Translations under genes and position numbers: made by a program | Origin: an uncultured Candidatus Binatia bacterium | GTDB taxonomy: Bacteria; Desulfobacterota; Binatia; Bin18 | DNA length: 64,000 nt | Direction: 5' to 3' | Assembly: GCA_958296235.1 (NCBI GenBank) | Contig: OY282457.1 | Coordinates: 823,769-887,768, forward strand | Shown: piece after piece, positions 616 to 6,725 of the stretch | Layout: every line of letters begins with the position of its first letter | Position numbering within the stretch: position 1 is the stretch's first letter | Notes under the pieces: generated by a model | The model's input: only the letters and a program-made list of their open reading frames with translations | Databases searched by the model: none | Told to the model about the DNA's origin: nothing

Positions 616-1398
616 CTACGTGTTATGTCCTAACAGCGAGCGGAGCGGCTCTCCAGGGTCTGGAGCCGCCATAAAGGTCTCACCAATTAAGAATGCCCGC
701 ACCCCCTGCGCTTCGAGTCGGTCTAATTGGCACCGGGTTGACAGTCCGCTTTCAGACACTACCAGTACATCGGAGGGCAGACCTTGCACCAGACGTTCAC
801 TGGTCTCAATCGTGGTATGAAAGGTACGCAAGTCCCGGTTGTTAATACCCAGCAGAGACACTCCACAGGCCAGGGCGCGCTCACACTCTGCTTCGTCATG
901 CACTTCGACCAGACAGTCCATCCCCAGCGTTTGAGACAGATGCCTCAGGTCTTGCAGCTGGGCGTCTTCGAGAATCGCGACGATTAAAAGGATGGCGCTC
1001 GCCCCGTGGGCGCGAGCTTCGTACACCTGGTAGTCGTCAAAGACGAAATCTTTTCTGAGGAGGGGGAGCCCTACCTGCTGGCGGATCTGTTTGAGATAAT
1101 CGAGACTGCCCTGAAAAAACTTTTTTTCCGTGAGTACTGAGATGGCCGCTGCTCCCGAGGCTTCATAGCTGCGGGCGAGAGCAAGGGGATCAAAGTCTTG
1201 CCGAATCACCCCCTTGGAGGGAGAGGCTTTTTTCACCTCAGCAATAATCGCCCGCCCGTTCCAGGTAGACAATGTCTGGAAAAGACCGGGCGGCTGAGAG
1301 TGGAACAGCGGCATGTCTTGAAGCTGGCCGAGCGCTACCTGCTGTTTTTGGAGCGTCAGTTCCTCGCGTTTATAGGCCACGATGTCGTCAAGAATCAT
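616..1398 (-). CDS. trpC: Indole-3-glycerol phosphate synthase
   Basis: Converts CdRP to indole-3-glycerol phosphate. The 260-residue protein has the family pattern: MILDDIVAYKREEL start, AEVKKASPSKG near residue 55 (catalytic and phosphate-binding Lys and Ser), LLRKDFV near 113 (catalytic Lys), VEVHDEAE, GINNRDL near 185 and VSESGL near 215. Length is normal for a monofunctional enzyme. Its ATG overlaps the trpD stop by 4 bp (1395-1398), which points to translational coupling. trpF follows after 8 bp. Confidence 0.96.
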   Translation of the reverse strand: MILDDIVAYKREELTLQKQQVALGQLQDMPLFHSQPPGLFQTLSTWNGRAIIAEVKKASPSKGVIRQDFDPLALARSYEASGAAAISVLTEKKFFQGSLDYLKQIRQQVGLPLLRKDFVFDDYQVYEARAHGASAILLIVAILEDAQLQDLRHLSQTLGMDCLVEVHDEAECERALACGVSLLGINNRDLRTFHTTIETSERLVQGLPSDVLVVSESGLSTRCQLDRLEAQGVRAFLIGETFMAAPDPGEPLRSLLGHNT

Positions 1399-2414
1399 AC
1401 CACTTCCCTATGCGTCAGCGGGATAAAATGTTCCAGCGTCCGAGCCGCGGCTCCACTGTCAACCGTTGCCCTGGCAAGCGCAATCCCGTCTTCGAGTGAA
1501 GCAGCCGCATTCCCGGCATACAGGGCTGCTCCAGCATTGAGCACCACAACGTCTCGGTGGGGCCCTGGAGTGCCAGCTAAGACAGACTGGATGATATCTG
1601 CCGATTCCTGGGCACTGGAGACCTGTAAGGCGGTTAACGGACGACACTGAAAGCCGTAGTCAGTCGGATTGATGCGATACGTGAGGACGCCCTGTGGCCC
1701 CCATTCAGCAACGTGCGTCGGGCCGCTCAGAGACACTTCGTCGAGTCCATCCTCGCCATGCACGATCAGGCCGTGCTGACAGCCCAATCGTCCGAGTGCG
1801 GCGGCCAGCGGCTGAACCCAACGCTGATCAAAGACGCCAATGAGTTGGTATTGCGCTCCCGCCGGATTCGTGAGGGGCCCAAGGATATTGAAGATGGTCC
1901 GTATCCCAACTTCCCGACGTGGGCCAACGGCATGGCGCATGGCTCGATGGAAAGCTGGGGCAAGCAGGAACCCGAAGCCGACTTCCCGCATGCAATATGC
2001 CACTTGCTGCGGAGACAGCTCAATACGAGCGCCAAGGGTTTCCAGGACATCGGCGCCGCCGACCGTTCCAGACATTGCCCGGTTGCCGTGTTTCGCCACA
2101 CATAAACCCGCAGCGGCAACCACAAAGGCAGCACAGGTCGAAATATTAAACGTATGACAGCCGTCCCCACCAGTTCCGCAGGTATCAATAACCGCGCGCC
2201 CCGGACGGACTGGTGTCGCCATAGCGCGCATGGCCCCAGCCGCCCCAGAGATCTCTGCAACGGTCTCACCCTTGATGTGAAGCGCAGTCAATAAGGCTCC
2301 AATCTGAGCTGGGGTGGCCTGTCCGTCCATCAAATCGGTGATGACGGCATGCATCTCTTCTTCCGTCAGATCTGCGCCGGCAACCACGTGGGCGATGGCC
2401 TCTTTGACCGTCAT
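1395..2414 (-). CDS. trpD: Anthranilate phosphoribosyltransferase
   Basis: Transfers the phosphoribosyl group from PRPP to anthranilate. The ATG at 2414 gives 339 residues (MTVKEAIAHVV), the usual family length. The open frame extends upstream to 2657, but that part overlaps the preceding SPOR gene and has no family similarity. Motifs seen are DTCGTGGDG near residue 83 (PRPP loop), KHGNRAMSG near 110 and GPLTNPA near 170. No trpE or trpG lies beside it; upstream is a SPOR-domain gene 17 bp away, so the anthranilate synthase genes must be elsewhere. Confidence 0.95.
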   Translation of the reverse strand: MTVKEAIAHVVAGADLTEEEMHAVITDLMDGQATPAQIGALLTALHIKGETVAEISGAAGAMRAMATPVRPGRAVIDTCGTGGDGCHTFNISTCAAFVVAAAGLCVAKHGNRAMSGTVGGADVLETLGARIELSPQQVAYCMREVGFGFLLAPAFHRAMRHAVGPRREVGIRTIFNILGPLTNPAGAQYQLIGVFDQRWVQPLAAALGRLGCQHGLIVHGEDGLDEVSLSGPTHVAEWGPQGVLTYRINPTDYGFQCRPLTALQVSSAQESADIIQSVLAGTPGPHRDVVVLNAGAALYAGNAAASLEDGIALARATVDSGAAARTLEHFIPLTHREVV

Positions 2415-2431
2415 AGATACAACGCGAGGGG

Positions 2432-3076
2432 TTAATCTGAGACCAGGTAGGCCTGGGCGAATTTCTCTTCGCGTCGAAAGCGCGCAGCCACGCGTTGGGC
2501 CTCTTCTTGGGTAAATGTTCCGACGCGCAAACGATACAATGTTTCTCCGTTCTTTGTCAGCCTGTTGACGGAGGCCGTATAGCCTCTTTTGCGGAGTTCC
2601 GCGGCCAGTTGACGTGCCGTACTTCGACTCTTTGTAACATGAACCTGAATATTCCACCCACGCCCAACCTGCCGCTCTTTTTGGCCTGGCGCTTTGGCGT
2701 CGCCTGGAGCAGGTGCAGGCAGTGCGATCTCTCGTTTTTTATTTTGCGGCGGCTGTGCTGAGTTCGCAGAAACGCTCTCCCCAGCAGGCGGGGTCGAGGG
2801 CCTCGTCTGCGATTGGCTATTCTGAGTCTGTTTCTCCAAGGTCTTCCTTAAAGTCAGCGGGAAGGTCTGGGCCGCGGGAATCGCAGCCTCGTTGTGGTCA
2901 GCCTGCTCAACAGGGAAACGCACGGTCCTTGTTTCCTGGGCAGTTTTGTACGCCTGTACTTCTTTTCCGATATAGACTCCACAAGCAAAGATAAGAAGAA
3001 AACTCACCACAGTACTCAAGAATACGATACCCCCCTCAGGAAGATTGAAGTGAAAGGCATACTGCCGAACAGCCAT
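2432..3076 (-). CDS. SPOR-domain membrane protein
   Basis: A 214-residue bitopic protein. A short cytoplasmic N-terminus is followed by one membrane segment at about residues 18-38 (GIVFLSTVVSFLLIFACGVYI). Next is a Pro/Gln/Ser-rich linker (about 80-135) and a C-terminal SPOR-like domain (about 140-214, with WNIQVHVTKSRSTARQLAAEL and YRLRVGTFTQEEA). SPOR domains bind denuded septal peptidoglycan, so a role in cell division or the envelope is likely; this is family knowledge, not shown here. It lies between rplQ and trpD, 17 bp ahead of trpD, and may be cotranscribed with the trp genes. It cannot be assigned to FtsN, DedD or another named member. Confidence 0.8.
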   Translation of the reverse strand: MAVRQYAFHFNLPEGGIVFLSTVVSFLLIFACGVYIGKEVQAYKTAQETRTVRFPVEQADHNEAAIPAAQTFPLTLRKTLEKQTQNSQSQTRPSTPPAGESVSANSAQPPQNKKREIALPAPAPGDAKAPGQKERQVGRGWNIQVHVTKSRSTARQLAAELRKRGYTASVNRLTKNGETLYRLRVGTFTQEEAQRVAARFRREEKFAQAYLVSD

Positions 3077-3667: not shown

Positions 3668-4693
3668 CTATGAGGTCAGGTTGCCCTCGCGGGATACTCG
3701 TATCCGGTCCAACTCTTCCCGAGGGGGGAAGGCTTCCAGGTGCATCCCCAGTTCCAACCCCATCTCATGGAGCAATTCCTTAATCTCGTTAAGTGATTTC
3801 CGTCCGAAATTTTTCGTTTTGAGGAGTTCGGGCTCGGCCTTGACAACGAGCTCTCCCACATATCGGATATCTGCACTCTGGAGGCAGTTGGCAGAACGAA
3901 CAGAGAGCGCCAATTCTTCAATAGGTCGAAAAAGATTCTCATTTGCTGGTGACTGGTCTTCCTGCCCCATGCGCTCTTCTTGGCTGTCGATCTCTTCTGT
4001 CGGGCCGGAAAAAATAGCCATCTGATCTTGAGCGACCCGTGCGGCCTCGGCCACAGCTTCCCTCGGATCAATGCTACCATCGGTCCATATTTCAAGCGCC
4101 AGTCTTTCGTAGTCCGTCCGCTGACCAACGCGCGCATTGGTCACAGTTACATTGACCTTTCGAACAGGGGAAAACACTGCATCAAGGGGGATTGTGCCAA
4201 CGGGGTCCTCTTCGGACTTGTTCCGTTCAGCCGCGACATACCCACGCCCCGAGCGAATCTCGGCTTCAACTTCGAGCTTGCCGTCCTTGCTCAGTTTTGC
4301 AACATGGGCCTCTGGATTGAGAACCTCGACCTGGGGGCCTACTACCAAATCCCCGGCGCTGACACTCTTCGCGCCATTCACTTTCAATGTGGCGGTTTCC
4401 ACAGCGCTGTCATGGAGATGAAATCGTACCTCTTTGAGGTTCAGCAGGATATCCGTAACATCTTCTGTGACACCGGGAAGCGTCGAGAATTCATGCACAA
4501 CATCTTGAATCCGCACCTTGGTGATGGCCGCTCCAGGTAAGGAGGAGAGAAGAATACGCCTCAGGGCATTGCCCAACGTTGTGCCGAATCCACGTTCAAA
4601 GGGCTCACCGATAAAGCGACCGTATGTGGGGGTCAGGGTTTTATCCTCAACATCGAGTGTCTTGGGCTTGATGAGATCATCAATATTCTGCAT
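3668..4693 (-). CDS. rpoA: RNA polymerase subunit alpha
   Basis: Forms the dimeric platform for assembly of beta and beta-prime, and contacts promoters and activators through its C-terminal domain. The ATG at 4693 gives 341 residues (MQNIDDLIKPKT); the frame runs open to 4765 but without family similarity. The N-terminal domain carries FGTTLGNALRRILLSSLPG (about residues 36-54). A charged linker around 240 leads to the C-terminal domain with LSVRSANCLQ and LLKTKNFGRKSLNEIKE (about 255-315). It sits between a coiled-coil protein gene and rplQ. Confidence 0.97.
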   Translation of the reverse strand: MQNIDDLIKPKTLDVEDKTLTPTYGRFIGEPFERGFGTTLGNALRRILLSSLPGAAITKVRIQDVVHEFSTLPGVTEDVTDILLNLKEVRFHLHDSAVETATLKVNGAKSVSAGDLVVGPQVEVLNPEAHVAKLSKDGKLEVEAEIRSGRGYVAAERNKSEEDPVGTIPLDAVFSPVRKVNVTVTNARVGQRTDYERLALEIWTDGSIDPREAVAEAARVAQDQMAIFSGPTEEIDSQEERMGQEDQSPANENLFRPIEELALSVRSANCLQSADIRYVGELVVKAEPELLKTKNFGRKSLNEIKELLHEMGLELGMHLEAFPPREELDRIRVSREGNLTS

Positions 4694-4825
4694 TGTGATT
4701 CTTTCATGCCTATCTCCGTTATTCGTCGGAGAGGCGACAGGCACTCCTTCCTCTCTGCTCGTCATCTAGATACCCGCTTCAAAAGACCAGAAGTTTATAA
4801 TGCTCCGTAGGAGAGCCGTACTTAG

Positions 4826-5218
4826 TTATCCCGTCCGCCGCAACAATTCTTCTAGCGCATTGGTCTGTACTTCCAATGATCGGGTCTGCTCTCGGTTCTG
4901 CTCTGCCAGCGACCGGGTCGACTCTTCCAGCGACCGGGTCTGCTCCGCCAGTGCCCGAGTGGACTCGCGGTTCTGCTCCGCCAACGACCGGGTCTGCTCC
5001 GCCAGTGCCCGGGTGGACTCGCGGTTTTGTTCTACTAGCGCCTGGGTCGATTCTTCCAGAGATCGGGTCGTCGCCTCGCTCTGTGCTAGCATGGTGTCCA
5101 GTTGCCGGTCGCGCCGCTGCCCGGCGAGGTGCATCATCCACAGCCCCCCGCCTATCAGAGCGAGTTGAAGATAATACGCCAGCAAAGACGCCGCCTCAAA
5201 GAAAGTAAGAGCTGCCAT
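4826..5218 (-). CDS. Membrane-anchored repetitive coiled-coil protein, function unknown
   Basis: 130-residue protein with no family I recognise. Residues about 5-32 are hydrophobic (LLAYYLQLALIGGGLWMMHLAG), a likely N-terminal membrane anchor. From about 50 to the end it is an uninterrupted coiled-coil-like repeat of 7-residue blocks (RALAEQT, RSLAEQN, RSLEEST) with RES/REQT insertions, giving an 18-residue (54-bp) period that is also visible as DNA repeats. It starts 15 bp after rpsD and lies in the same direction as rpoA, inside the alpha cluster where normally nothing stands between rpsD and rpoA. The ORF is coherent (start, anchor, repeat, stop), so I consider it real. The repeats also open other frames, and those are artefacts. 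Confidence 0.65.
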   Translation of the reverse strand: MAALTFFEAASLLAYYLQLALIGGGLWMMHLAGQRRDRQLDTMLAQSEATTRSLEESTQALVEQNRESTRALAEQTRSLAEQNRESTRALAEQTRSLEESTRSLAEQNREQTRSLEVQTNALEELLRRTG

Positions 5219-5233
5219 TGGAACTCGCCGGCC

Positions 5234-5866
5234 CTAGACTTTCGAGTACAGCTCAACAATAAGTTGTTCGTTGATAGGCAAGGTGATCTCCGACCGAGCC
5301 GGTAGGGAGCGAACTTTTCCAGAAAAGGAATCCGTTTGGACCTCAAGCCATTCCGGCACTCCACGTCGCTGGGCAAGCTCGACGGACTCCTGGATACGGG
5401 TGATTTTTCGGCTCGCCTCGCGCACCTGCACCTCGTCTCCGGCTTTTACACAAAACGATGGAATCGTCACTCTGCGTCCGTTGACGTGAAAATGGCCATG
5501 ACGTATCAACTGCCGAGCCTCTGAGCGTGAGGTCGAGAATCCCATCCGGTACACCATATTGTCGAGACGACTCTCGAGCAGAATCAAAAGATTTTCCCCG
5601 GTGATTCCACGTTGGCGCTCGGCCCGTGCGAAAAGGCGCCGAAACGGCCCCTCAAGCGTTCCATAGATACGTTTCAGCTTTTGTTTCTCTCGTAGCTGAA
5701 CACTGTACTCGGTCGCCTTTCTGCCTCTCCCCTGGCCGTGTTGTCCCGGCGGATAGCTTCTTCTCTCAATTGCACATTTATCCGTGTAACACCGCTCGCC
5801 TTTCAGAAAGAGTTTCAATCCTTCTCGGCGGCATAGACGGCAGGATGGGCCTCTATATCGTGCCAC
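5234..5866 (-). CDS. rpsD: 30S ribosomal protein S4
   Basis: Primary 16S rRNA-binding protein that nucleates 30S assembly. 210 residues, starting [19 protein letters not shown]. The Cys pattern C-x2-C and C-x5-C in the first 32 residues marks the zinc-binding (C+) form. The S4 RNA-binding domain is seen at about 100-160 ([29 protein letters not shown]). It lies between rpsK and the coiled-coil gene. Confidence 0.97.
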
Positions 5867-5915
5867 AAAAACCTCCTGACTCTCGTATCAGCTCCCTGCT
5901 CGTAGACCCAAACTC

Positions 5916-6314
5916 TTAGACTCGGCGACGCTTGGGCGGACGACAGCCATTGTGAGGGATAGGCGTGACGTCCCGGATAAGGCTCACCGCAAACCCGGCG
6001 GACTGCAGTGCCCGCAGAGCGGACTCTCTCCCGGCACCGGGCCCCTTCACGTGCACTTGAACCGAGCGCATACCAGCATCGGCCGCTTTACGCGCAGCGC
6101 TCTCCGCCGCCATCTGGGCGGCAAACGGCGTGCCCTTACGTGACCCCTTCAGTCCCACACTTCCCGCACTCGCCCAGGCCACAGTATTTCCTTGCGGGTC
6201 GGCAATGGTCACAATAGTATTGTTGAAGGTCGAATAGATATTCACCACACCTTCTGGAATGTTTTTCCGAATTTTCTTCTTCCGTGAGACAGAGCGCCTC
6301 GCAGCTTTTGCCAT
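5916..6314 (-). CDS. rpsK: 30S ribosomal protein S11
   Basis: Platform protein of the 30S subunit that interacts with S7 and mRNA near the E site. 132 residues, with [35 protein letters not shown] and the invariant C-terminus [12 protein letters not shown]. It follows rpsM by 27 bp and precedes rpsD, as in most bacteria. Confidence 0.98.
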
Positions 6315-6341
6315 ACAGTGACTCTCTCCTTACGCCGTGTC

Positions 6342-6725
6342 TTATCTGGGAGTAGGCGCGACTTTCTTTCCGGCAACGGTCCGTCTCGGTCCCTTACGTG
6401 TCCGAGAATTATTTTTTGTCTTTTGGCCACGGACCGGCAGATTGCGGCGGTGTCGGAGGCCCCGGTATGCCCCAATGTCAATATAATGTTTAATATGACT
6501 CGCAACATCACGCCTGAGGTCTCCCTCGACACGGTGGTCTTGATCGATAACCCGCCGAATATTTGCGATCTCATCATCCGCCAGCGTGTCAGAATTTGCA
6601 TCCGGGGCAACTCCTGCCTCGGCCAGAATTTTGAGTGCGGTGACCCGTCCTATCCCATAGATATAGGTGAGGCCGACGCCGATTTTTTTGTTCCGGGGTA
6701 ATTCGATACCCGCAATCCGTGCCAT
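6342..6725 (-). CDS. rpsM: 30S ribosomal protein S13
   Basis: Head protein that contacts the P-site tRNA and forms the inter-subunit bridge with L5. 127 residues: [14 protein letters not shown] start, [13 protein letters not shown] helix-two-turn-helix near residue 22, and basic C-terminal tail with [19 protein letters not shown]. It follows rpmJ by 42 bp. Confidence 0.98.

Follow-up and report, generated by a model that had tools for sequence, protein, structure and literature searches.

What is a gene for a repetitive, putatively membrane-anchored protein doing between rpsD and rpoA, two genes of the alpha operon that ordinarily adjoin? In the window (the whole 64,000-nucleotide stretch of Candidatus Binatia DNA analyzed here), an ORF of 130 codons, running from an ATG to a TAA, occupies positions 4826–5218 of the minus strand. 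It starts 15 nt past the stop codon of rpsD (ribosomal protein S4; 5234–5866, minus strand, called from the ORF and homology), and 132 nt separate its end from the conserved ATG of rpoA at 4693 (3668–4693, minus strand, called from the ORF and comparison with congeners). Immediately beyond the alpha operon, on its downstream side, the ORFs at window positions 616–3076 look by eye like trpC, trpD and a gene for a SPOR-type protein. The initial annotation had placed the 130-residue ORF 15 nt past rpsD; we confirm that location and further find, from paralogues and codon positions, that the ORF is protein-coding.

Comparison with related genomes showed how unusual this arrangement is. The distance from the rpsD stop codon to the aligned rpoA start is 19–82 nt at all 29 related loci examined, bearing out the earlier statement that the two genes are normally adjacent, versus 540 nt in the focal genome. 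These 29 loci, out of a search covering 57 other genomes, come from six congeners (G001–G006), eight other genomes of the same family and 15 of the class (the same-family genome G010 has no proper rpsD match). The gap measures 58 nt in each of the six congeners, all of which lack the focal gene there, and 52–66 nt in the eight same-family genomes. Aligned with its congeners, the focal genome loses similarity where rpsD ends, at its stop codon, and clearly regains it from codon 6 of rpoA onward; between these points, about 555 nt of unrelated DNA with the focal gene (4679–5233) stand where the congeners have a homologous 58-nt spacer and the first codons of rpoA, of which codons 1–2 (ATG CAG) may be retained. 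As far as this alignment goes, the event is shown to have exchanged the spacer, to roughly where rpoA begins, for other DNA, rather than to have simply added a gene as first described, and a gain by insertion after the split from the congeners is well supported by the same comparison. An ancestral gene at rpsD–rpoA, repeatedly lost in the relatives, would be the converse reading, and losses are possible in this family, whose presence and absence vary (its sites A and B are empty in the focal genome); however, the absence of the gene from all 29 relatives and the single homologous 58-nt spacer common to the six congeners render it exceedingly improbable. The structure is seen in one genome only, as a chimaeric join made during assembly would be, but such an artefact is hardly credible for a genome assembled as one contig of 4,624,001 bases (4.62 Mb), in which both flanking genes, rpsD and rpoA, are intact and the family of the insert is present in multiple copies.

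The replacement also changed what precedes and begins rpoA. A new spacer of 132 nt (4694–4825, minus strand, examined by DNA search and RNA folding) now stands before a gene whose product, if started at the conserved ATG, would begin MQNIDDLIKPK instead of the MQESDLIKPK of the congeners, and the purine-rich GAGGGAG found ahead of rpoA in the latter is absent. The rpoA frame stays open for 24 further codons upstream, to an ATG at 4765 (window 4679–4765). The new spacer has no matches longer than 23 nt elsewhere in the nine genomes searched, and the donor of the focal DNA was not found among them, the best non-self match of the whole insert being 63 nt at 77% identity. The predicted fold of the rpoA leader RNA is no better than that of shuffled sequences (z 0.64), and an Rfam search of 4600–6400 returned nothing.

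Whether the inserted ORF is a gene at all required attention to its repeats. Tandem Repeats Finder recovers the 54-bp repeat of the initial annotation as 2.3 copies at 4927–5048 (score 181), along with a 21-bp unit present 3.1 times at 4901–4966. The repeat tract leaves other frames open too, and openness alone is thus no proof of coding; several open frames and the lack of an ortholog at the site are what one would expect of a non-coding or chance repeat that is open by accident. The initial annotation had taken absence of the frame in close relatives as a sign of precisely that. The frame is indeed absent at this site in the six congeners, but the paralogues are coding and the gene is a lineage-specific gain, so that the conclusion does not follow. 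In paralogues, the stretch comprising the membrane segment and its juxtamembrane continuation is found again in the same reading frame, with a conserved protein sequence (E 1.7e-13 to 3.0e-13, single-sequence search), and over 28 codons of this stretch the focal gene differs from each of the site-A copies of the congeners (L034–L037) at three first, three second and 19 third positions. This dominance of third-position changes (19 of 25) indicates a protein under selection and largely refutes the chance-repeat reading, which we regard as highly improbable. Among other copies of the family, seven same-site pairs in five sets yielded dN of 0–0.204 and dS of 0.122–0.91, with dN < dS in all seven (L160, L168 and L181 were excluded, and L143 and L162 entered as partial sequences), and the site-A orthologs, with dN and dS both ≤0.05, are too alike for a selection test. 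Judging by these codon comparisons, the focal ORF is a genuine protein gene; for the focal copy itself, which has no ortholog, selection is evident against paralogues only.

From the ORF call, codon-position counts and an AlphaFold2 model, its product is predicted to be a membrane helix with a long helical tail. The membrane segment (residues ~5–29; approximate limits 5132–5206, minus strand, from alignment and hydropathy) is of modest hydropathy, its best 19-residue Kyte–Doolittle mean being 1.53, and is followed by an R-rich QRRDRQLD motif. Three arginines lie directly after the segment and none in the first ten residues; by the positive-inside rule, the tail is probably cytosolic. In this tail (residues 42–128; 4835–5095, minus strand, delimited by AlphaFold2 and leucine spacing), successive leucines are mostly 7 or 11 residues apart, a spacing that fits the 7+7+4-residue units first described. 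The strongest hydrophobic period of the tail, 3.56 residues, is longer than that of a heptad (3.5) and shorter than that of a hendecad (3.67), which implies a nearly untwisted helix if a coiled coil forms, and the polarity of the tail (12 leucines in 89 residues) suggests that any such coiled coil may be weak. The AlphaFold2 model, computed from an alignment of the focal protein with ten other family members, is one uninterrupted helix spanning residues 2–129 (mean pLDDT 94.8, pTM 0.49), for which a Foldseek search of the PDB gave no match at E up to 10. The focal product probably crosses the inner membrane once, with a short N-terminus on the outer side and a helix of ~100 residues in the cytosol, and such helices are predicted to be able to assemble into a coiled coil that is weak and almost untwisted. 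Taken with the paralogues and the congener comparison, the model supports the original description of a gene for a repetitive, membrane-anchored helical protein lodged between rpsD and rpoA.

What the first description missed is that the focal gene belongs to a dispersing family with about 23 copies in this genome. The members of this family share a short N-terminus, one membrane helix, an RRDRQLD-type motif, Leu-spaced helical repeats and an E-L-L-R-R-type end; the focal protein displays the membrane helix, an R-R-D-R-Q-L-D type motif, the Leu-spaced tail and an L-x-E-L-L-R-R type C-terminus. A profile built from 20 members (A1) detects it with E 6.8e-22, a value inflated by its being a row of that profile. 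The same profile has 23 matches in the focal genome, 8, 19, 17, 5, 14 and 3 in the congeners G001–G006, and 16 and 25 in G007 and G012, which belong to a sister genus, with none in 19 other genomes (seven of the same family and 12 of the same class). Counted in the total of 130 matches over nine genomes are the members from which the profile was built and a small number of split matches; ten of the 130 report an internal stop, in some cases merely from the match overrunning the true end. In one congener, four family matches lie within ~20 kb of a 39.9-kb contig (G003:C11; L155, L156). When 395 genomes of the phylum were scanned, with at most 12 candidates scored in each, the family was recovered in the focal genome only, and there just 12 of the 23 matches, so that weak members could be missed. 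A scan of genome_contigs with a closer alignment produced 14 loci, ten of them labeled Candidatus Binatota/Binatia, three 'Desulfurellaceae bacterium bin18' and one a 'Gammaproteobacteria' bin; the copy on this last contig (L119, 277–579) reflects either misbinning or transfer. The range of the family may exceed what the profile catches. Binatota-type bins often come from sponges.

Database searches left the family without a name in the libraries consulted, even though its kind, small dispersing accessory genes, is known. Nothing exceeded the curated cut-offs in Pfam for nine members or in NCBIfam for the focal protein, and no toxin or antitoxin family of either library reaches its cut-off in the latter; PHROGs (four members) and the sequences of solved structures likewise gave either no match or nothing above such cut-offs. 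Neither phages nor PHROGs contain a match to the focal protein, one other member has none in plasmids, and no occurrence of a second family alignment (A2) was confirmed in viral_contigs. NCBIfam matches at E 0.0009–0.01 (maltokinase, TraP, ZorA and others) were rejected, as they look like low-complexity helix matches. We found no account of the family in the open-licence literature, a restriction that makes this weak evidence of absence.

Comparison of individual sites points to rapid turnover of these genes. Many pairs of copies share ~150–340 bp at 66–95% identity despite unmatched flanks, while some sites are truly shared. For one subfamily found at nine unrelated sites, the alignment begins up to ~45 nt before the ATG, with a AGGAGAAAA-like element in most copies, and runs through the stop codon, not beyond it. 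Three other sites occupied in the focal genome are largely empty in its congeners. First, the FTHFS gap is empty (10–46 nt) in five of the six, with G001 holding ~3.3 kb of other content that has no profile match. Second, the SDR gap is empty in all six (15–26 nt). Third, the argJ gap is empty in four, with two convergent stop codons abutting, and in G004 and G006 (L212, L213) it carries a ~0.9-kb insert coding for antitoxin-like and PIN-like proteins (named by eye). The opposite pattern holds at two sites that lie 3.5 kb from each other in G001: copies are present in G001, G003, G004 and G005, and the focal genome has 71 and 19 nt; a HigBA-like pair, recognized by eye, adjoins the G004 copy at one of them. 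Inspection by eye of the junctions at four sites in the focal genome revealed no clear terminal inverted repeats or target-site duplication. At three of them (focal, FTHFS and SDR) some bases were exchanged, not cleanly duplicated, and the argJ site shows a weak 5-bp inverted match. Two further intergenic repeats were noted in passing, one of ~130 nt (L129, ~4256–4397) with dozens of matches at ~70–90% identity in all six congeners, and the other of ~150–185 bp with 81–95% identity between focal-genome copies (L126, 2136–2290; L137, 3753–3927; L138, 1–192; L140, 1682–1892; L130, 946–1131).

The best matches of the focal protein are to the site-A copies of the congeners (55–59% identity over ~50 residues), and site A is empty in the focal genome, which might suggest that the focal copy recently moved from there. 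Yet 19 of 28 third codon positions differ between them, against site-A flanks that are ~84–93% identical, indicating that the divergence of the focal and site-A copies probably predates that of the species. We accordingly reject a recent relocation as very unlikely.

Copies at the same site also differ from one another. In four of five same-site sets, the repeat tracts vary in frame, by 7, 14, 14 and 21 residues; those of L144/L151 do not. The suggestion that the tract may vary in length between strains finds indirect support in these other family members, whereas the focal tract itself is present in no second genome. The L123/L162 pair, with its 7-residue difference, is the only clear ortholog pair among the length-variant sets. 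For L145/L169, 43 of 249 nt differ against flanks that are 89–95% identical, and for L127/L173, 47 of 183 nt against flanks 89–91% identical. Same-site copies in two species that are more diverged than their flanks strengthen the case for turnover and weaken the use of the word 'ortholog'; to judge from these alignments, the members of each pair may be distinct copies, one having displaced the other at the site.

The position of the focal gene invites the proposal that it serves the ribosome or RNA polymerase under alpha operon co-regulation, for example by tethering either to the membrane: it lies on the same strand, 15 nt after rpsD and 132 nt before rpoA, and the only terminator-like match in the region falls inside the ORF, at about the frequency expected from shuffled sequences (1 versus 0.6). 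Co-transcription with the ribosomal genes, which the initial annotation had taken as certain, is probable from shared direction and position. We surveyed the neighbors of 21 other focal-genome copies at 20 loci, leaving out the match at 1722130 (E 2.5e-4). Neighbors were picked by eye without control regions, so the counts carry no claim of enrichment, and 29 neighbor proteins were checked with Pfam. No ribosomal gene was recognized among the displayed neighbors of these 21 copies, which, together with the absence of the gene here in six congeners, makes a dedicated role in ribosome or polymerase function quite improbable; a dedicated ribosomal role for the focal gene is, on this ground, unlikely. 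At seven of the 20 loci a restriction-modification, CRISPR, toxin or defense-type gene lies within about three genes: a type III methyltransferase and HicA (L122); Cas6, which together with CRISPR-like repeats recognized by eye flanks one family copy (L125, 2191–5393); an AAA_15/DUF3696 ATPase (L130); an Eco57I methylase (L134); PIN and MazF (L135); SIR2-like and MmeI-type enzymes (L138); and YafQ (L141). The remaining 13 loci have no counted neighbor of this type; L128 (DUF2442, DUF2204) and L137 (a helicase-nuclease with a PADLOC match to MkoA) were doubtful and left uncounted. Copies also adjoin ordinary genes, such as argJ, FTHFS, uvrB, SDRs and thioredoxin, and 15 of the 21 are co-directional with the next upstream ORF of at least 100 residues, some of which may be spurious.

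Several known systems offer partial parallels. Type II toxin-antitoxin modules are dispersing small genes that are patchy between close species and land in intergenic gaps. The family shares its small size, patchiness and intergenic placement with them, and antitoxin/PIN-like and HigBA-like pairs, identified by eye, occur in the same gaps; however, the focal insert is one same-strand family ORF with no partner, in contrast to their two-gene makeup. Miniature inverted-repeat elements and repetitive extragenic palindromes are likewise short, dispersed intergenic units, but the unit here is a selected protein gene with no terminal repeats or target duplications clear by eye. Rare foreign genes within a conserved operon cluster have been described in Gammaproteobacteria and Bacilli (PMC8046335), and the focal gene shares that character; the portions of that account available to us mention neither an rpsD–rpoA insertion nor small membrane proteins. 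Finally, the membrane-anchored helical tails of ZorA, the RNase Y N-terminus and Rz-like spanins give weak low-complexity helix matches that cover the helix only and, where curated cut-offs exist, fall far below them: the ZorA profile of Zorya defense scores 17.8 bits for the focal protein against a cut-off of 250, over part of the profile only.

Taken together, we think it likely that the focal gene is a coding copy of a lineage-restricted, dispersing family, gained at the rpsD–rpoA spacer. As the congener comparison shows, a piece of DNA carrying one family copy took the place of the short spacer on the branch leading to this species. The simplest mechanism would be illegitimate recombination, the donor being foreign or diverged; the gene, given its orientation and spacing, is probably carried along by alpha operon transcription. 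The family at large would spread by illegitimate recombination or through an unseen enzyme. In being dispersing, polymorphic between species, selected at the protein level and placed in gaps like those of toxin-antitoxin-like pairs, it resembles a small toxin-antitoxin or defense-type accessory module. By analogy with such modules, we tentatively propose that the protein could act as a membrane-tethered helical adaptor or effector, and not as a ribosomal or transcription factor. More speculative still is the idea that these Binatia harbor a new class of mobile membrane-protein genes of 60–170 codons, spreading through gaps without a transposase of their own, with a selected protein that changes in seven-residue repeat steps and a genome-wide set of paralogous membrane-anchored helices that might co-assemble (or form a set of phage-defense decoys or sensors).

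Whichever role applies, every relative examined keeps rpsD next to rpoA, and a natural insertion that alters the beginning of rpoA as well illustrates how changeable this spacer is. With nine genomes, 130 matches, and both empty and occupied sites, the family provides a countable system for the spread of small genes, and its many copies and fast turnover offer a way to ask what membrane-tethered helices do.
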